A stretch of DNA of 40,195 nucleotides, taken from positions 1 to 40,195 of the forward strand of contig JAFGHL010000129.1 of assembly GCA_016930155.1 (NCBI GenBank). Reading direction: 5' to 3'. Position numbers and translations under genes: made by a program. The notes under the pieces are model-generated. The model was given only the letters and a program-made list of their open reading frames with translations. It was not told where the DNA came from and ran no database searches. Numbering within the stretch: the first letter of the stretch is position 1; the number at the start of each line of letters is the position of its first letter. Source of the stretch: Dehalococcoidia bacterium. Its GTDB lineage: Bacteria > Chloroflexota > Dehalococcoidia > GIF9 > UBA5629. Shown piece after piece: positions 30,474-40,195 of the stretch.

Positions 30474-31724
30474 ATGATCCCCTGGTTCGTCGGCGCGGTT
30501 GTACGCCAATCGGGAAAAAGCTTCCTCAGATTTACAGGTGATATCGATACCGGCCACATCGCCCGTGAAGGACATGTGCGCGGCGGCGATGTCTCTCTCT
30601 ATATCCATATCCCTTTCTGTAAAACGCTCTGCCCGTTCTGCTGCTTCAACCGCTATCTTTTCAAAGAGGATCAGGCCCGCGCTTACTTCGCAGACCTGCG
30701 TCGGGAAGTCGCTATATACGCCGGTCTGGGCTTTAAATTCAACGACTTCTACTTCGGCGGCGGCACGCCCACCGTCCTTATGGACGAGCTGGCCGGCTTC
30801 GTCGATTTCCTCAGATCGAGATTCGAGATCAGGCGTATCTCCCTTGAGACCACCCCGCGCGAGCTGACGCCGGAGACGATCGACCAGCTCAGGCAAATAG
30901 GGGTCAACCGTCTTTCCATCGGTGTGCAAAGCTTCGACAATTCGTTGCTTAAGGCCATGGGCAGGACTCTCTTCAAAGGCGAGGATTCCATCCGAAAGCT
31001 TAAGCTGGCGCAGGGAAAATTCGATACGGTCAACGTGGACCTTATGTTCAACTTCCCCACGCAGACGCCGGAGCAGTTCCGCTCCGATATTAAAATTTTC
31101 AAGGAACTCGGCAGCGACCAGGCCACATTTTATCCGCTCATGCCCTCTCCCCATAAACTGGACGCGCTGACGAAAAAGTTCCGCAAAGTGGATACCTCGC
31201 GCGAAAAGCAGTTCTACGAGATAATCCTGCAGGAGCTGCTGGGCGGTGGATATAAGGCTTCCACGGCCTGGTGTTTCTCGCGCGGCGACCTGATGATCGA
31301 CGAATATATCATCGATTACGACGACTATATCGGTGTCGGCGCCGGCTCCGTCAGCTTCCTGGGAGGTGATTTCCTGGTCAACTCCTTCTCTCTGGAGGGA
31401 TATCATAAATTGATCGCAGAGGACGGGTTGCCCATCGTTCGCACCCGCCGTCTATCGGCTACCGAGCAATACCGCTACTACATGCTGACCCGGTTCTTCG
31501 GCATGGGCCTGAACGCGCAGCAGTTCAGGCAGCGCTTCAACTCCGACATCCATGCCAGGCTATGGGCGGAACTGCTTTTCTTCAAAAGCGCAGGGGTTAT
31601 CAAAGAGGAAGACGGTATTATCTCGGTCACGCGGCGCGGCATGTACCCGGTGGGCACCATGATGAAGGAGTTCTTTGCCGCGCTCAACACGCTGCGGGAA
31701 TACTGTATCGAGGGCGGCATTTAG
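30474..31724 (+). CDS. Radical SAM protein, HemW/HemN-like
   Basis: The 416-residue radical SAM enzyme has the cluster motif HIPFCKTLCPFCCF: Cys49, Cys53 and Cys56, with a fourth Cys57. It also has YFGGGTPTVL, ISLETTPRELTPETIDQL and GVNRLSIGVQSFDNSLLKAM, all typical of the coproporphyrinogen III oxidase-like HemN/HemW group. The HemW haem-site motif HNxxYW before the GxGAG segment is replaced by MIDEYIIDYDDYIGVGAGSVS, so a plain HemW haem chaperone is doubtful. Relatives include HutW-type haem-degrading methyltransferases and other porphyrin enzymes. The following gene encodes a lipocalin-like protein 47 bp downstream. Translation is probably leaderless. Confidence 0.8.
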   Translation: MIPWFVGAVVRQSGKSFLRFTGDIDTGHIAREGHVRGGDVSLYIHIPFCKTLCPFCCFNRYLFKEDQARAYFADLRREVAIYAGLGFKFNDFYFGGGTPTVLMDELAGFVDFLRSRFEIRRISLETTPRELTPETIDQLRQIGVNRLSIGVQSFDNSLLKAMGRTLFKGEDSIRKLKLAQGKFDTVNVDLMFNFPTQTPEQFRSDIKIFKELGSDQATFYPLMPSPHKLDALTKKFRKVDTSREKQFYEIILQELLGGGYKASTAWCFSRGDLMIDEYIIDYDDYIGVGAGSVSFLGGDFLVNSFSLEGYHKLIAEDGLPIVRTRRLSATEQYRYYMLTRFFGMGLNAQQFRQRFNSDIHARLWAELLFFKSAGVIKEEDGIISVTRRGMYPVGTMMKEFFAALNTLREYCIEGGI

Positions 31725-33735: not shown

Positions 33736-34419
33736 TTAAACCAGCATGTAGCCGAACGCCTTGCGGCTGATGATGCGGGAGGGGTTGGAGGTATCCGGCT
33801 CTATCTTCTCCCGCAGCCGGTGCACGAGCTGGTCGAGCGTCGCATCCGAGATAGCTGCCGGGTCCAGACTATCGAACCATACGGCCTTGATTATCTCGTC
33901 GCGCAGGCAGACCACGCCGGCGTTCTCGTAAAGGTAACTCAGCAGCTCGTACTCCTTGCGGGAAAGCTTAACCGCTTTGCCGTCTACATGTACCTCTTTC
34001 TTGGCCTCATCGATTTTTAGCCAGCTCACATCGGTGGATACGGCTTTCTGCCCGGCGCCCGCTCCCCTTCCCCCCAGCAAACTGGTGCTCTCGGTCTCCT
34101 TGAAGATCAAGAGCGAGTGCGCCGGCCCCGCCGCCACACCCAGCCCTATCTTGCAGTTGTGCTTCAGGTCGTACAGCCGACCTGCAATTATCCGGTCGTC
34201 GTTGAGCACGGTGCCGTTGGTGCTGCCAAGGTCCCTGATCTGATAATGGCCTTCTTTTTCAATTATCTCGATATGCCTTCGCGATACCGCTTCGTCATTT
34301 AACTCGATATCGGGCTTATACTGGGGTGTGCGCCGGCCCACGACCGTGGCAGCCTGCCGCAGGGTAAATATTTTACCGATATCGTCAACATCGCCCTTTT
34401 TAACTATTATGAAAGCCAC
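33736..34419 (-). CDS. FHA domain-winged-helix (OmpR-type) transcriptional regulator
   Basis: The 227-residue protein joins an N-terminal FHA domain (TVVGRRTPQYKPDIELND, then VSRRHIEI and RDLGSTNGTVLN, residues about 1-105) to a C-terminal OmpR/PhoB-type winged helix (VKLSRKEYELLSYLYENAG, SDATLDQLVHRLREKIEPD, ISRKAFGYMLV, residues about 128-227). FHA domains bind phosphothreonine. No receiver domain is present, so control would come from Ser/Thr phosphorylation rather than an aspartate relay. EmbR of mycobacteria is a known FHA plus DNA-binding regulator under kinase control, but with a different domain order and a BTAD domain. GTG start, with AGGAGG 6 nt before it. It is divergent from the kinase/phosphatase genes, and tandem 11-bp repeats lie in the shared spacer. 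Confidence 0.9.
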   Translation of the reverse strand: MAFIIVKKGDVDDIGKIFTLRQAATVVGRRTPQYKPDIELNDEAVSRRHIEIIEKEGHYQIRDLGSTNGTVLNDDRIIAGRLYDLKHNCKIGLGVAAGPAHSLLIFKETESTSLLGGRGAGAGQKAVSTDVSWLKIDEAKKEVHVDGKAVKLSRKEYELLSYLYENAGVVCLRDEIIKAVWFDSLDPAAISDATLDQLVHRLREKIEPDTSNPSRIISRKAFGYMLV

Positions 34420-34497
34420 AACGGGCCTCCTGCTTTATGCGGGCCGTATTTCCTCTTGCAGTATAATATATCCGGAGCGATCATGGCAGAAAACCGA

Positions 34498-34566
34498 GAT
34501 GTCAGATTTATATTAGGTATTCGTCAGAAGGCTGTCAAGCAATAGATTTTTCCGCAGCCTTAAAAT
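34498..34566 (+). promoter_or_regulatory. Four 11-bp direct repeats and -10 hexamer before the zinc-ribbon-FHA gene
   Basis: Units at 34498, 34509, 34520 and 34531 carry the cores TCAGA, TTAGG, TCAGA and TCAAG in identical phase (34502, 34513, 34524, 34535). The last unit ends GTCAAGCA, as does the last unit of the array at 38103. A -10-like TAAAAT (34561-34566) starts 19 bp after the array, with no recognisable -35, as in activator-dependent promoters. On the minus strand TATACT (34465-34460) could serve the divergent FHA-winged-helix gene. An AAGGCTG/CAGCCTT hairpin also overlaps (34528-34561). Confidence 0.55.
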
Positions 34567-34578
34567 GATGTGATAGCA

Positions 34579-35055
34579 ATGGAAGAGGTGATCAGCATTA
34601 GCGTCGTCTGCCCGGCCTGCCAGGGATTAAATGGTGCCGGCAGCTTTTTTTGCTACAGCTGCGGACACTACCTGGCCGAAGAGCCGATACGCAGCGATAC
34701 CGTCCTGGAGGAAGCCGTAGAATCTGCAGCACAGGGCGCTGCGGCCAGGATGATCATGCCGAAAGGAGGGGAGATCGTTCTGACGGACAATCCCAGGTTC
34801 ATTCAACGCAGCGATTTCGAGGGCAAGCTATCGCAGGATGCATTGATGAGTATCTCCAGACAGCATCTGCTGGTTACACATGAGAACGGCAGTTTTTTCG
34901 TACAGGACCATGGGCGCGACGGCACCGGCAGCACCAATCACACACGGGTCAATAATGTCGATATCCATCATAAAGGCAGACAGGCCATCAAGGACGGTGA
35001 CCGCATAGAGCTGGCCCGGCAGCCGGAGGCCACGATCATTTTCAGATCAAGCTGA
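34579..35055 (+). CDS. Zinc-ribbon-FHA domain protein
   Basis: The protein (158 residues from ATG 34579) has an N-terminal zinc ribbon (CPACQGLNGAGSFFCYSCG), a short acidic/alanine linker and a C-terminal FHA domain: MIMPKGGEIVLTDN, ISRQHLLVTHENGSFFVQD and GSTNHTRVNN. It is cytoplasmic, with no signal or membrane segment. The FHA fold is closely related to that at the C-terminus of the 38212 product (shared MPxGGE, SRQH and DGDxIELA-like segments). It probably recognises a phosphothreonine made by the kinase two genes downstream. Neither ATG 34579 nor the in-frame GTG 34570 has a clear ribosome site. A 22-bp gap separates it from the PP2C gene, so it probably begins an operon. Confidence 0.85.
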   Translation: MEEVISISVVCPACQGLNGAGSFFCYSCGHYLAEEPIRSDTVLEEAVESAAQGAAARMIMPKGGEIVLTDNPRFIQRSDFEGKLSQDALMSISRQHLLVTHENGSFFVQDHGRDGTGSTNHTRVNNVDIHHKGRQAIKDGDRIELARQPEATIIFRSS

Positions 35056-35077
35056 CATGAAACTGAAGGAGTTCTGA

Positions 35078-35881
35078 TTGGACACAGGATACGGCTGGGA
35101 TACCGGCCTTGTGAGAAAACTCAACGAGGACAGTGTCTTCTGCTGCACCTTCGATCTGCGCACTAGCTCGGGCACGGTATCGGCAGGCCTGCTTGCGGTG
35201 GCGGACGGAATGGGTGGACATGACGCCGGAGAGGTGGCCAGCGACCTGGCCATCAGGATTTTTCAGGCCGAATGTATCTCAGGGTTGCTGGCCAGGCAGA
35301 CGAAGCCCGGTTTGCCGCTGCTGGCCTCCGCCTTCAGTCAGGCTAACAACGCCGTCCTTGAGGCTGCAGCGGAGAGGTCTCTGCAGGGCATGGGCACCAC
35401 TCTCACCGCAGCGCTTATCGCCGGCCAGGACATGTACGTTGCCCATATAGGGGATTCCCGCTGTTACATTATCAACACCAGGGAGACTTTACAGGTCACA
35501 ACGGACCACTCGGTGGTACAGGAGATGGTAGATAAAGGGCATATTTCCGCGGAGGAAGCCCTGGCACATCCGCGCCGCAACGAGATAACGCGCGTGCTCG
35601 GATACAGCGCCGACAGCGGGCCGGACCTGATACAAATCAAGCTTTACGCCGGCGATAACATACTGCTGTGCTCGGACGGCCTGTGCGGTGTGCTTCCTTC
35701 TGATAAAATCAAAGAAACGGCGCTTGGCTCGCAGAGTCCCGCACAGGCCTGCGCGGACCTGATCTCTCAGGTCAATCTGGCCGGCGGCCCCGACAATATA
35801 TCGGTTATTATAGCCAGGCCCGGCGGCCTCCCTTCCTGGCAGGCGGTGGTATCGGCAAAGACGGGGGTGAAAACAGCTTGA
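35078..35881 (+). CDS. PP2C-type Ser/Thr protein phosphatase
   Basis: The 267-residue protein carries the full bacterial PP2C motif series: TGLVRKLNEDSVF, VADGMGGHDAGEVAS, GMGTTLTAAL, AHIGDSRCYII, TTDHSVVQEM, LCSDGLCGVL and GGPDNISVIIA. The aspartates that bind Mn/Mg are all present, so it should be active. It would reverse phosphorylation by the kinase encoded next, as PstP/PrpC-type enzymes do. The start is TTG, with AAGGAG 6 nt upstream; no ATG is nearby. Its stop overlaps the kinase ATG (TGATG), so phosphatase and kinase are translationally coupled. Confidence 0.93.
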   Translation: MDTGYGWDTGLVRKLNEDSVFCCTFDLRTSSGTVSAGLLAVADGMGGHDAGEVASDLAIRIFQAECISGLLARQTKPGLPLLASAFSQANNAVLEAAAERSLQGMGTTLTAALIAGQDMYVAHIGDSRCYIINTRETLQVTTDHSVVQEMVDKGHISAEEALAHPRRNEITRVLGYSADSGPDLIQIKLYAGDNILLCSDGLCGVLPSDKIKETALGSQSPAQACADLISQVNLAGGPDNISVIIARPGGLPSWQAVVSAKTGVKTA

Positions 35882-36897
35882 TGGACGATCCGACCATCTT
35901 CGTCATAGCCTTCGCCCTGCTCTTCACCAGCATACCGGTCACAGTGGCCATTATTCAGGCGGTCCAGCGGCACAGGGCAAACGCCTCAGCCCGGCGCCAG
36001 GGCAGGCCGCAGCAACAGCAGGCCCAACCGGAAAGCAAGCATCGCATCAACAGCCGCTACGAGCTTAAAGCGCCGGCCTTCAAACAGGGAGGCATGGCCA
36101 ACATCTGGCTGGCCAGAGACCGCACCAGCGGCAGGAAATGCATCATCAAGACACCCCGCCGGGGCACCACCATGGATAATGTATATCTGGACAAGCTGCG
36201 TCAGGAAGCCGCTTTCCTGAAAAGGCTACAGCATCCCAACATAGTCACCTACCTGGATGATTTCTATTACAAAGGGGAATTCCACCTGGTACTGGAGCTG
36301 GTAACGGGCGAAACTATCATGTCGTCCTCTCCCAGGACGTCGGCCGGTGAGCAGAAGCTCCTGACCTGGGCAGGACAGGCGCTGGACGCCCTGTCCTATA
36401 TCCACGCCGCGGGTATTGTGCACAGGGACGTCAATCCTAAAAATATCATGCTGAGCGGAGACGGCGGCATCAAGCTGATCGACTTTGGCACGGCAAAAAG
36501 CCTGGAGAGCATGAAGAGGGACACGGTCAAAACAGATCCCTTCACGCAGATAGCCAACAAGGGTTTCGACATTCCTGAATTGTTCATAGGAGGCGAGAGC
36601 GACCAGCGCTGCGACCTTTGCGGTCTGGCACAGACCTGTATATACCTGCTCACACTCAGACAACCCAACGACCTGTGTCTCGAGCTGATCCGCACCAACT
36701 GGCCGCGGAGCTATAGCGAGGCCGGCAAGGTGGCGGACAACATGATCTCGGCAGGCATCTCCGAGAGGACATCGCGGTGCCTGGCGCAGGCCATCATGTT
36801 TTCACCGGGCAGCAGATTTGCCAGCGCCACGGCCATGCGGGCGGCGCTGCTGTCTGCAAACGAGTGCGAGGTGAAAGAAGTGGGGGTTTCTAAATGA
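35881..36897 (+). CDS. Membrane-anchored Ser/Thr protein kinase
   Basis: The 338-residue protein has one N-terminal membrane segment (IFVIAFALLFTSIPVTVAII), a glutamine-rich linker, then a Hanks-type kinase domain. Visible are the glycine loop KQGGMANIWLA, invariant Lys90 (CIIKTP), HRDVNPKN with Asp183 and Asn188, DFGTAK with Asp201, and a reduced APE motif (FDIPEL). The TM lies at the N-terminus with almost nothing outside, so unlike PknB-type kinases it has no extracellular sensor such as PASTA repeats. Sensing may come from the two separate TM-FHA proteins that follow. Start and stop overlap both neighbours (1 nt and 4 nt), indicating a single operon. Confidence 0.92.
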   Translation: MDDPTIFVIAFALLFTSIPVTVAIIQAVQRHRANASARRQGRPQQQQAQPESKHRINSRYELKAPAFKQGGMANIWLARDRTSGRKCIIKTPRRGTTMDNVYLDKLRQEAAFLKRLQHPNIVTYLDDFYYKGEFHLVLELVTGETIMSSSPRTSAGEQKLLTWAGQALDALSYIHAAGIVHRDVNPKNIMLSGDGGIKLIDFGTAKSLESMKRDTVKTDPFTQIANKGFDIPELFIGGESDQRCDLCGLAQTCIYLLTLRQPNDLCLELIRTNWPRSYSEAGKVADNMISAGISERTSRCLAQAIMFSPGSRFASATAMRAALLSANECEVKEVGVSK

Positions 36898-38042
36898 GAC
36901 GACCTATGTCAGCACTGCTATTTGCGCTGGCTGTTATGCTCGTTTGCCTGAGCGCAGTGGCCCTCACACACGTATGCGCATATGCCATGGGCGCGCCGAC
37001 CGATAACTTCACCATACCTGATCCCATGGATGATGCCCAGCATAATGAGATCAAGCCGCCCGTTATTTTCATTCTGCGCAGCACTACTGCGCTGCCTTTA
37101 GACGCATCGCCTGAGCTGGCCGCAACCATACAGGGTACATCCCCCAAAGGGAGCGCCAGCATCACGGGCGACGAGCAATGGTACCTCGATGTCGATATCA
37201 ACATGCCGGGCTGGCTCTATATATATGAATATTATCCGGCGGCCGGCGACGACCAGGGCAGATGGATTGCCTATAAATGGCAACTAACCGAGCAGGGCCA
37301 GTGGAGGCTCGGCCCATTCCGGCCGGGTGAGGATGAGCCGGAGGGTCAGCATATATACAGGCTCTTCTTTTACGGAAACGGACAGTGGGCCGCAGACAGC
37401 GGCAAGGAGCAGAGAAGTAGCCTTGTCTACTGGAACTACATCAAAGACCAGGTGGAGCCGGACCAGCCGGCCCAGCCGGCCCAGCCAACCCAGCCAACCC
37501 AGCCGGACGCACCATCAACGCCCGAGCCGCCCGCCACACAGGATAACAGCCTGCTAAAATTCATAACCAATCCCTTTTTCCTTCTGATTGCTCCTTCAGC
37601 CATAGTCATTATTGTGCTGCTGGGGCTGTACGCGCGCCGCCGCCTGCGCCAACAGAGTCTCCCCGGCAATACCGCTCAGCAGCCGCTGGTGGAATTGCTC
37701 GAACAGCCGGGTACACCGCCGAAATCACCGGTGCACGGCGCCCCCATGGCTATACTGGAATTACCCAACGGACTGAAAATTCGGCTGAGCGAAGAAAGCG
37801 AGATTATCGGACGCGCCCAGGTCGCCAGGTCGCTGGGACTGGATGAGCTGGGGATGATATCAAAGCAGCACTTTAAAATCAGCTTTGCGGACGGCAAGTC
37901 CTTCATTGAAGACATGGGCAGCGCCAACGGCACTACCGTCAACGGCGCTGATATTCGTGACGCCGGCCCTGTGGAATTGAAAGACGAGGACGTTATCGAG
38001 ATGGCCGGCACGACCAGCCTGAAGTTTCGATCCAGCCATTAG
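36894..38042 (+). CDS. Signal peptide, aromatic-rich outer domain, TM and cytoplasmic FHA protein (1)
   Basis: The 382-residue protein has a signal peptide (probable cleavage after AYA, residue 31) and an outer domain at about 90-185 with repeated aromatics (PGWLYIYEYYPA, GRWIAYKW, QWRLGPF). A Gln-Pro-Ala/Thr linker at about 191-205, a membrane helix at about 225-246 followed by the basic ARRRLRQQ, and a cytoplasmic FHA domain at about 285-382 (IIGRAQVARSLG, ISKQHFKISF, DMGSANGTTVNG) follow. I cannot name the outer domain. ATGA overlap with the kinase couples the two. The likely job is to sense something outside and dock on phosphothreonine inside. Confidence 0.85.
   Translation: MRRPMSALLFALAVMLVCLSAVALTHVCAYAMGAPTDNFTIPDPMDDAQHNEIKPPVIFILRSTTALPLDASPELAATIQGTSPKGSASITGDEQWYLDVDINMPGWLYIYEYYPAAGDDQGRWIAYKWQLTEQGQWRLGPFRPGEDEPEGQHIYRLFFYGNGQWAADSGKEQRSSLVYWNYIKDQVEPDQPAQPAQPTQPTQPDAPSTPEPPATQDNSLLKFITNPFFLLIAPSAIVIIVLLGLYARRRLRQQSLPGNTAQQPLVELLEQPGTPPKSPVHGAPMAILELPNGLKIRLSEESEIIGRAQVARSLGLDELGMISKQHFKISFADGKSFIEDMGSANGTTVNGADIRDAGPVELKDEDVIEMAGTTSLKFRSSH
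37464..37508 (+). repeat. Five tandem 9-bp repeats encoding the QPA/QPT linker
   Basis: Units CAGCCGGCC, CAGCCGGCC, CAGCCAACC, CAGCCAACC and CAGCCGGAC run head to tail in frame. They encode QPA-QPA-QPT-QPT-QPD, the linker between the outer domain and the membrane helix of the TM-FHA protein. Such repeats can change copy number by slippage, which would alter linker length without shifting the frame. Confidence 0.85.
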
Positions 38043-38102
38043 CCTCCTTATTCTTGAATGAGGGCCATGCCCGGCGTCCGGTTCAATCCTGTGATTCCCC
38101 TT

Positions 38103-38179
38103 TTTATCAGGTGTTTATCAGGAACCTGTCAGGTCAGGGTCAAGCAGAGGGTTGAATGTACACTTATACTTAATATAGA
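38103..38179 (+). promoter_or_regulatory. Four 11-bp direct repeats and promoter before the second TM-FHA gene
   Basis: Units begin at 38103, 38114, 38125 and 38136, with cores TCAGG, TCAGG, TCAGG and TCAAG exactly 11 bp apart (38107, 38118, 38129, 38140). The first two units share TTTATCAGG. TATACT at 38165-38170 starts 18 bp after the last unit, nearly the spacing seen before 34579. Alternatively TTGAAT (38152) and TATAGA (38174) form a 16-bp-spaced pair. Tandem 11-bp spacing is what PhoB/OmpR-type winged helices bind. Confidence 0.6.
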
Positions 38180-38211
38180 TACACCGACCACCCGGGAGAT
38201 GCATTACATAT

Positions 38212-39759
38212 ATGAAAAAAATCATCATACCGCTGCTGATCGCATGCATGATCGTATCAGCCGCGGCTGTAGTATTTTCGCCGGCGCAGGCGCAGCCATC
38301 GCCGCCGGTCAATCCTGATGAAAGCTGGCAACCGCCGGACGAGGGCGGTGACATGGTCGAGCCGCCGGTTGGTGTTGACACTTACAACCAGACCTGGCCC
38401 AGCCTTCAGATGACTGTCCCATCGCCACCGCCGGCGGGAGCAGCGGGGTCCATCGTAAACGCCTACCTGGTAACCAGCTACGGGCAAACGCTTTACAACC
38501 TTTATCGCAACGACCTGTGTTACCTGGTCGTTTCATTCAACGGCCCGGGGTATTTCTACCTGTGGGAATATTATCCGGCGGGGAGCACACCATACGGACA
38601 CTGGCTGTGTTACCGGTGGTACAGGCCTTATGCCGGCGTATGGCGCATCGGGCCGTTCAGCGCCGAGTCCTGGGATCCCGATGGACTCTACGTCTGGAAG
38701 ATGTGGTACAACTCCAGCTTCTCCTGGTCGGAGCGTACTCTAAGCTTTAATTACACACGCGGCAGCATTTCACCTTACAGCGGGCCGTTGCCCAGGCCCA
38801 TCTATCAGCCCGTGATCAATTCCTTCAGCGCAAATGCATCGTCGATAGATGTGGGACAAACCGTCACACTGACCTGGACCACGAGCAACGCCGGCAGCGT
38901 TACCATATCGCCCGGGATCGGCACGGTGGGAACATCCGGGTCGACGACCGTCACACCCGGCGCAACCACCACTTACACGCTATCGGCTATGGGCAGTTCC
39001 GGAAGCACGGTGACGTCTTCCGCCACCATTAACGTTATACCAAGGGTATCGCCTACGTTGAGTGTGCAGCAACCAACCATACAATCCGGGCGGTCCACTA
39101 CGCTTTCATGGAACGCCCCTGCCGCTCTGCAGGTATATATCGACGGGTTGGGGAATTTCGATGCCGTGGGCACAACGACAGTTGCGCCTAATCAAACGAC
39201 CACGTATAACCTCACCTCCACTTATATCGACGGTACGACGCAGACGGCAGCCGTTACCGTCACCGTCGAGCAACCCTTCTACCTTCTTTACGGCCTCATG
39301 GCGCTGCTGGCCATAGCCGCCATAATAATAGTCGTTATGATGGTCAAGAGGCCAAAGAGGCCGCAGCCTGCGCGCGCATCGGCCACAAGCGCAGATACCG
39401 CTACATCCACCGCAGCTACCTCGACGGCGGGTACCTCGCCTGCGTCGACTGCGATCACGGATGCCCCTCCCGCCAAGCTCATCATGCCGGACGGCGGCGA
39501 GATGCTGCTTGCCGGCAATGTCAGGGCGCTTGGCCGCCAGGACTTTGAAAAGCTGCTGCCGGCGGACAGGGCATCGTTCATCTCAAGACAGCACATCAAC
39601 ATATGGTACGAGGATGGGAAATACTATATCGAGGATCCCGGCAGCACAAACGGCACCAAGCTCAACGGCGAGGAGATCCGCGACAGCGGCAGGCAGGCCC
39701 TTGTGGAAGGAGACGTCATTGAGCTGGCCGATAAATTGAGTATCACCTTTAAAATATAG
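38212..39759 (+). CDS. Signal peptide, aromatic-rich outer domain, two Ig-like domains, TM and cytoplasmic FHA protein (2)
   Basis: The 515-residue protein has a signal peptide (cleavage probably after AQA, residue 27) and the same aromatic outer domain as the previous product at about 85-185 (PGYFYLWEYYPA, GHWLCYRW, VWRIGPF). Two related Ig-like domains follow at about 200-350, each with a GQTVTLTW/GRSTTLSW strand and a TTTYTL/TTTYNL strand. The membrane helix at about 356-378 and basic stop KRPKRPQP lead to a Ser/Thr/Ala-rich linker and a C-terminal FHA domain (ALGRQDFEKLL, ISRQHINIWY, DPGSTNGTKLNG). It has its own promoter region, so it can be made apart from the kinase operon. The Ig-like domains may extend the sensor through the envelope. 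Confidence 0.85.
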   Translation: MKKIIIPLLIACMIVSAAAVVFSPAQAQPSPPVNPDESWQPPDEGGDMVEPPVGVDTYNQTWPSLQMTVPSPPPAGAAGSIVNAYLVTSYGQTLYNLYRNDLCYLVVSFNGPGYFYLWEYYPAGSTPYGHWLCYRWYRPYAGVWRIGPFSAESWDPDGLYVWKMWYNSSFSWSERTLSFNYTRGSISPYSGPLPRPIYQPVINSFSANASSIDVGQTVTLTWTTSNAGSVTISPGIGTVGTSGSTTVTPGATTTYTLSAMGSSGSTVTSSATINVIPRVSPTLSVQQPTIQSGRSTTLSWNAPAALQVYIDGLGNFDAVGTTTVAPNQTTTYNLTSTYIDGTTQTAAVTVTVEQPFYLLYGLMALLAIAAIIIVVMMVKRPKRPQPARASATSADTATSTAATSTAGTSPASTAITDAPPAKLIMPDGGEMLLAGNVRALGRQDFEKLLPADRASFISRQHINIWYEDGKYYIEDPGSTNGTKLNGEEIRDSGRQALVEGDVIELADKLSITFKI

Positions 39760-39788
39760 CAACCGGAGTAATCAAAGAGGAGGTTAAA

Positions 39789-40195
39789 ATGATTGCTAAA
39801 AAAATTGTTCAGTTCATGGCGGCAGGGCTTCTTGTCTGCTCTGTCTTGATGCTGCCGCTGATACCTGCGTCTGCCGATGACGCACCGGCGACTTCAGAGA
39901 CTACCGTAGTCACAGAGACAACGACCACTGATATCGTGGGGGATACCATGGTCGCAACCGATTCCGAGCCGGTCGTCCCACCGCAAGATTCCGTAATTGA
40001 AGATACTGCTATTACCACTTCAGACCAAGGGTCTGAGGCGCTTCAGCCGCCCATTCTAGTTGCCCAGGCCGAACTGTCCGCGGATGATGCGCTCCCACCT
40101 CCCCCTCTACCACCCACATCACCTATTACAATCCAGGTTCATCCACCTATATCTGTGCCTTCAACGAGCTCTCTACCTCCCCCTCCCCCTCCCCC
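39789..40195 (+). CDS. Secreted Thr/Pro-rich protein, 3' truncated by window edge
   Basis: The frame is open from ATG 39789 (GAGGAGG 6 nt upstream) to the right edge, giving 135 residues. A signal peptide is clear (IVQFMAAGLLVCSVLMLPLIPASA), followed by a Thr/Glu-rich acidic stretch (SETTVVTETTTTD) and then proline runs (LPPPPLPPTSP, PPPPPP at the edge). No domain can be recognised before the window ends. It begins 29 bp after the second TM-FHA gene, probably in the same transcript, so it may be a further outer component of the same system or a third receptor whose TM and FHA lie beyond the window. Confidence 0.75.
   Translation, partial: MIAKKIVQFMAAGLLVCSVLMLPLIPASADDAPATSETTVVTETTTTDIVGDTMVATDSEPVVPPQDSVIEDTAITTSDQGSEALQPPILVAQAELSADDALPPPPLPPTSPITIQVHPPISVPSTSSLPPPPPP

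Follow-up and report, generated by a model that had tools for sequence, protein, structure and literature searches.

A conserved FHA, kinase and phosphatase island in Dehalococcoidia with a predicted phosphothreonine-dependent regulon

Results

An island of FHA, kinase and phosphatase genes is conserved within one family

We analysed a 40,195-bp stretch of DNA (the window), which is the entire contig JAFGHL010000129.1 (C48 in our numbering) of the 2.62-Mb draft genome of a Dehalococcoidia bacterium (GIF9; UBA5629; GCA_016930155.1). Its last part carries an island of seven genes, encoding an FHA-winged-helix regulator on one strand and, on the other, a zinc-ribbon-FHA protein, a PP2C phosphatase, a Hanks-type kinase with a transmembrane (TM) segment and three TM-FHA proteins (R1, R2 and R3, for receptors 1 to 3). 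We suggest that the island is a self-contained phosphothreonine signalling regulon, and put the probability of this reading at roughly 0.62. Comparison between genomes shows the gene set, the integrity of the island, its operator and the regulon described below. An earlier note on this DNA had described seven open reading frames (ORFs) here, and all were found at the same coordinates.

The same order, with the FHA-winged-helix gene opposite the genes for zinc-ribbon-FHA, PP2C, TM-kinase, R1, R2 and R3, was seen in 17 genomes, with some pieces lying past contig ends. The earlier note had proposed looking for it elsewhere, and it recurs in many members of this family of uncultured Chloroflexota at 57–95% protein identity. 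Kinase orthologues with this range of identity were present in 15 of 59 other relatives, all of one family, and wherever the FHA-winged-helix gene shared a contig with a kinase orthologue it was divergent at a similar distance. FHA domains were found in 20 of 60 relatives: all 16 with a kinase orthologue (the window's own genome included), G017, whose island is interrupted by a contig end ahead of the kinase, and three others. The FHA proteins do not, then, occur mostly without kinase and phosphatase genes, a doubt raised in the earlier note, as they accompany the kinase orthologue in 16/16 genomes and are found in 4/44 others, a co-occurrence seen within one family and not corrected for shared ancestry. 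The island kinase and PP2C are the sole matches to PF00069 and PF13672 in their own genome, where the six FHA matches comprise four in the window and one at the end of each of contigs C77 and C104. Close named matches were two Chloroflexi metagenome-assembled genomes (VGOF01000088.1 and JAPLHJ010000132.1), other named matches being mainly FHA-only or winged helix-turn-helix (wHTH)-only proteins.

The regulator joins an FHA domain to a winged helix through a conserved threonine

The FHA-winged-helix regulator (33736–34419, reverse strand) has an N-terminal FHA domain and a C-terminal OmpR/PhoB-type winged helix, as assigned by Pfam (FHA, 1.2e-15; Trans_reg_C, 2.2e-18), alignment and fold comparison (Z of 16–18 for the FHA domain and of about 16 for the wHTH, which matched the effector domains of YycF/VicR). 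The predicted structure consists of the FHA domain, a disordered linker (110–128) and the winged helix. Pfam gave no receiver domain with a phospho-Asp, the FHA domain occupying that place, and no BTA domain was found in the regulator, whose FHA domain sits N-terminally. The family keeps the Arg/Ser/Asn phosphothreonine-binding set, which is without its Arg in a distant paralogue (L079); this DNA-binding protein thus carries an FHA domain with a phosphothreonine site.

Directly behind the last FHA strand lies T112, in an acidic context (FKESEST, FxDPEAT). Of 77 FHA-winged-helix proteins from Chloroflexota, 74 have Thr at this linker position and none has Ser (0/77); the three exceptions have a Thr nearby, in a stretch where the alignment is uncertain. 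T112 is the probable phospho-acceptor and phospho-switch of the regulator, as predicted from this conservation. A radical SAM (HemN_C) gene lies near the FHA-winged-helix gene in several relatives; in the window (30474–31724) it is two genes further off.

A four-half-site operator is shared by the island and unlinked genes

Between the regulator gene and the operon opposite lies a block of about 42 bp (TTGTCAGATTTATATTAGGTATTCGTCAGATAGCTGTCAAGC) that is near-invariant in 16 genomes, although the regulators share about 60% identity. GTCA occurs in it at 0, 22 and 33, in phase with an 11-bp period, and the operator can be described as four TGTCAG half-sites with this period, ending near the -35 region. 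Operator 1, in the divergent promoter (34500–34540, forward strand), has the half-sites TGTCAG, TATTAG, CGTCAG and TGTCAAGC with an 11-bp period (model match, E 3.7e-9), and its reverse complement contains TTGACA-N17-TAATAT pointing at the regulator gene. The predicted -10 of the operon (TAAAAT, 34561–34566, forward strand) begins 27 bp past the start of the last half-site, compared to 26 bp in most relatives. Operator 2 (38105–38145, forward strand; TATCAG, TATCAG, TGTCAG, GTCAAGC, 11-bp period; E 3.5e-8) lies upstream of R2, with a predicted -10 (TATACT, 38165–38170, forward strand) at 26 bp.

A pattern search located this array at further sites in the genomes, and a reversed-pattern control gave 0 matches in any genome. 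On direct inspection, allowing at most two mismatches across 16 core bases, four half-sites with an 11-bp period were present upstream of R2 in 16/16 loci. An operator profile was trained on two island site classes only (divergent promoter and R2 upstream). Strong matches to this profile occurred in 17/17 island genomes and 0/12 relatives without the island (two matches at E about 0.07, none below), a comparison made with no phylogenetic correction. At E ≤ 0.003 there were 16 further matches, all outside the training set, of which 15 lay upstream of a lipoprotein family or of unlinked TM-FHA genes. These lipoproteins are small, Tyr/Pro-rich and coiled-coil, and were found in 12 of 60 relatives, all of them island genomes. 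In every site class the -10 mostly lies 26 bp past the start of the last half-site; the mean match to TATAAT was 4.21 of 6 at this offset and 2.45 at the next best, three lipoprotein sites that could not be extracted being scored zero. The proposal that the conserved block is merely a sigma-70 promoter was rejected, as its half-sites turn up again at unrelated promoters, where they keep a fixed distance to a different -10, one that lies on the other strand.

Tandem 11-bp repeats are known to mark the operators of PhoB/OmpR-type winged helices (PMC4415409, PMC4832192), and direct repeats of this kind stand here beside the -10/-35 elements. The C-terminal domain of the regulator shares that fold. 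Most simply, the FHA-winged-helix protein would bind the operator and activate from it. The earlier note had placed the output of the system in this protein, a proposal well supported by the conserved operator and regulon and favoured, too, by the conserved linker Thr.

As a separate observation, two zinc-ribbon proteins with TM segments adjoin a regulon lipoprotein at locus L291 (G000:C87, 4928–9307) and have long immunoglobulin-like (Ig-like) repeat arrays of the R2–R4 type.

The kinase has an N-terminal anchor and no outer domain

The zinc-ribbon-FHA adaptor (34570–35055, forward strand) is a soluble protein with an FHA domain (Pfam, 1.2e-9), a zinc ribbon that is weak in Pfam, four invariant Cys and R76/S92/N119. 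Its likelier start is the ATG at 34579; with the predicted -10 of the operon so near (34560–34590), the transcript may be nearly leaderless. The PP2C phosphatase of the Stp1/IreP type (35078–35881, forward strand; Pfam, 1.9e-14) is followed by the Hanks-type kinase (35878–36897, forward strand; Pfam Pkinase, 3.2e-30). The kinase (339 aa) has a single TM segment close to its N-terminus and a kinase domain running to its C-terminus, with no extracytoplasmic sensor domain, in agreement with the earlier note. K91, H182-R183-D184 and D202-F203-G204 are invariant among orthologues, leaving the catalytic Lys, HRD and DFG intact. PADLOC matches of the kinase were put down to generic kinase similarity.

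The 4-bp start/stop overlaps that the earlier note had read between PP2C and kinase, and between kinase and R1, are correct. It had also stated that PASTA domains and secretion genes are absent, and none were found in the island proteins: no PASTA repeats, the kinase included, no secretion-system component and no type VI secretion system (T6SS) structural families, the Tss scan not extending to the rest of the genome.

The last gene of the window is a third TM-FHA gene broken by the contig end

R1 (36894–38042, forward strand) consists of a signal peptide, an outer domain, a TM segment and a cytoplasmic FHA domain. R2 (38212–39759, forward strand) has a signal peptide, three predicted beta-sandwich outer domains, a TM segment, a Thr-rich linker and a cytoplasmic FHA domain; the Pfam FHA match was about 1e-12 for each. 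The last ORF (39789–40195, forward strand), with a signal peptide and a Pro-rich start, had been taken for a secreted Pro-rich protein and is instead the truncated start of R3. It leaves the contig inside a poly-Pro run, and a single ORF in the relative G001 (C95, L201) matches this start at 76% and, further on, the contig-end FHA protein of C77 at 75%. The C77 and C104 contig-end genes both encode TM-FHA proteins with Pro-rich starts. Since, in addition, the C77 gene's neighbours resemble those of R3 in complete relatives in size and position (the Trypsin_2/redoxin neighbour was checked with Pfam), we conclude that the gene was broken by an assembly gap in the poly-Pro run, with its remainder on C77. 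The neighbour in question, a secreted Trypsin_2, FN3-like and redoxin protein, lies beside the R3 gene at L008 (G000:C77, 4118–5764) in the window's own genome and holds the same position in several relatives (L074, L081 and L083); an enoyl-CoA hydratase gene adjoins it in the window's own genome.

The outer parts of the TM-FHA proteins are Ig-like or Pro/Tyr-rich. Foldseek and VIA returned only common Ig-like folds for the R2 outer part, adhesion and biofilm-scaffold proteins being among the structural neighbours, and DUF4384, suspected for the R1/R2 outer domain, gave no Pfam match. Full-length matches to an R2 profile among 393 genomes of the class were confined to the island's family. On alignment of six FHA families, the Arg/Ser/Asn set that the earlier note had singled out was kept in the regulator, zinc-ribbon-FHA, R2, R3 and R4; it failed in part in R1, where the Asn is gone in one subclade. 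A T[SPA][VI]-like stretch is conserved ahead of the FHA domain in R2 and R3, a weaker hint of a phospho-switch because those linkers are Thr-rich.

Related regulators elsewhere pair with receptor kinases

Homologues of the FHA-winged-helix protein are widespread in Chloroflexota. A kinase gene lay near the regulator gene in 13 of 20 fetched distant loci, a fraction that is only indicative because the loci were taken from the top matches and include some close relatives of one another; these kinases were mostly adjacent and mostly had an internal TM segment and a C-terminal outer part. One FHA-winged-helix/kinase pair within the island's family includes a kinase that carries a PD40 beta-propeller. 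The island kinases formed one clade (99/99) in a kinase tree; their sisters were two further kinases that have an N-terminal anchor and no outer domain, and family members with outer domains came on the next branch out. These data support, without proving, the view that the kinase outer domain was lost or relocated in the island.

Three further loci were noted. L087 (G026:C5, 5389–14705) is a second phospho-signalling cluster, in which PP2C and a kinase with an N-terminal anchor are accompanied by FHA and FHA-TM-trypsin proteins and by an FHA-winged-helix protein of about 45% identity. At L214 (G022:C40, 6974–18458) and L215 (G009:C8, 6192–9347) FHA-winged-helix genes stand directly beside Hanks kinases, one of the two clusters additionally having PP2C and an FHA-kinase fusion.

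Discussion

Our proposal for the island is as follows. The N-terminally anchored kinase and the PP2C phosphatase, whose roles are suggested by intact catalytic motifs, would set the phosphothreonine level at the inner face of the membrane. The kinase may phosphorylate T112, as well as sites on itself or on the TM-FHA proteins, and PP2C would reverse this. Phosphothreonine would be read by the FHA-winged-helix protein, in which the FHA domain and T112 could stand in for a PhoB-type receiver: phospho-T112 may dock either on the regulator's own FHA domain or on that of a partner, and so alter DNA binding, and FHA docking may also assemble proteins at the membrane. The regulator would bind the four-half-site operator abutting the -35 region and activate its own operon, the R2–R3 unit, unlinked TM-FHA genes and the small lipoprotein gene, targets indicated by comparative genomics. 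The TM-FHA proteins could be recruited through their inner FHA domain to the phosphorylated kinase or to each other.

Several observations weigh against this proposal. Further OmpR-family regulators are encoded in the same genomes, and no operator match was obtained for two of the lipoprotein genes, one in G005 and one in G027 (C125). The R1 FHA domain is without its Asn in one subclade (GSAGG), although the R1 of the window retains it, and 11-bp repeats upstream of 19 distant FHA-winged-helix genes were not clearly above shuffles. To these are added the shared ancestry behind the kinase and FHA co-occurrence and the fact that the TM-FHA proteins are themselves regulon targets, which is compatible with outputs as much as with sensors.

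This last point bears on a rival that we consider less probable but by no means negligible, in which signalling runs from the inside out: the kinase would sense something intracellular or within the membrane, with the TM-FHA proteins and lipoprotein as surface or adhesive outputs that the regulator induces and that FHA contacts cluster when the kinase is active. The operator has among its targets R2 (with an operator of its own), R3-like genes, genes for unlinked TM-FHA proteins and the lipoprotein; the outer parts are Ig-like, Pro-rich or Tyr/Pro-rich with adhesion and biofilm-scaffold proteins among their structural neighbours (though these are common folds), and the FHA-TM-trypsin protein of the sister cluster has the layout of an effector. 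However, R1 is translationally coupled to the kinase in the same operon, as a partner would be, and homologous regulators elsewhere pair with outer-domain kinases, so that an outer sensor appears to be missing from the island kinase and the TM-FHA proteins are its obvious replacement. The coupling of R1 to a kinase without an outer domain points to an input role, and we favour, only modestly over output, the view that the TM-FHA proteins may act as split receptors that pass signals from outside on to the kinase, with positive feedback.

It is unlikely that the operator serves an ordinary two-component regulator (e.g., a PhoB-like one) with the island as one target and the FHA-winged-helix protein binding elsewhere. 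The half-site TGTCAG does resemble the core CTGTCAT of the E. coli pho box (PMC4415409), and other OmpR-family wHTH proteins are at hand in the genome; yet the operator is absent from the 12 island-less relatives, one of them congeneric with an island genome, and the targets found were the divergent operon itself, FHA proteins and one lipoprotein family, with no phosphate gene. A degenerate or house-keeping kinase cluster with generic FHA scaffolds and no dedicated transcriptional output, for which the Asn loss in R1 might speak, is very improbable given the invariant catalytic residues, the phosphothreonine-binding residues invariant in the other families and the conserved operator and regulon, which already disfavours it.

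Placed beside known systems, the island would work like PknH-EmbR of Mycobacterium tuberculosis with a PhoB-like operator, yet it fails defining features of each. PknH-EmbR likewise pairs a Hanks kinase with an OmpR-type transcription factor that bears an FHA domain. PknH carries an extracytoplasmic sensor domain, whereas the island kinase has none and the outer domains are found on the TM-FHA proteins. EmbR, whose FHA domain is required for interaction with the kinase (PMC4601284), is arranged as wHTH-BTA-FHA, and the island regulator as FHA-linker-wHTH without BTA. PhoB/OmpR response regulators share the C-terminal winged helix and an operator of 11-bp direct repeats (PMC4415409), given for PhoP of M. 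tuberculosis as 7-bp repeats with a 4-bp spacer (PMC4832192), but have a receiver with phospho-Asp in place of the FHA domain and conserved linker Thr. In the GlnH-GlnX-PknG-OdhI/GarA system of Actinobacteria, sensor and Ser/Thr kinase are also on separate proteins, the FHA protein OdhI/GarA docking on the autophosphorylated kinase (PMC9769921, PMC8546545) and carrying a phosphorylatable ETTS stretch beside its FHA domain (PMC8546545). GlnX is, however, described without FHA, OdhI is a metabolic inhibitor, and the cascade ends on an enzyme, in contrast to the predicted output on DNA in the island. The T6SS set PpkA/PppA/Fha resembles the island in its kinase, PP2C and FHA proteins acting jointly; the island proteins include no T6SS structural component and have instead a DNA regulator and regulon. 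In Bdellovibrio DgcB, an FHA-GGDEF protein, the FHA domain is seen bound to the phosphorylated N-terminal peptide of the same protein (PDB 6hc1), with a GGDEF enzyme as output where the island regulator has a DNA-binding domain. A literature search returned no account of this architecture in Chloroflexota, most subscription papers lying outside its coverage.

To our knowledge, a dedicated output is known for only a small number of bacterial Ser/Thr kinases. For the island, a pathway from kinase to DNA can be read from the sequence by itself, and it comes with a candidate phosphosite, a defined operator and a small set of targets. The arrangement also suggests a way in which separate membrane and kinase proteins may take over from a one-piece receptor kinase. 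Tentatively, and with rather less confidence than for the regulon itself, the system might be seen as the phosphothreonine equivalent, in Chloroflexota, of the two-component system, with an FHA domain and a nearly universal linker Thr in place of the PhoB-type receiver and its Asp; in the island's family receptor, kinase and regulator would be three proteins wired by FHA-phosphothreonine contacts, in a circuit amplifying its own receptors. As the FHA-winged-helix family with its conserved Thr extends far across Chloroflexota, such a switch could be general there.

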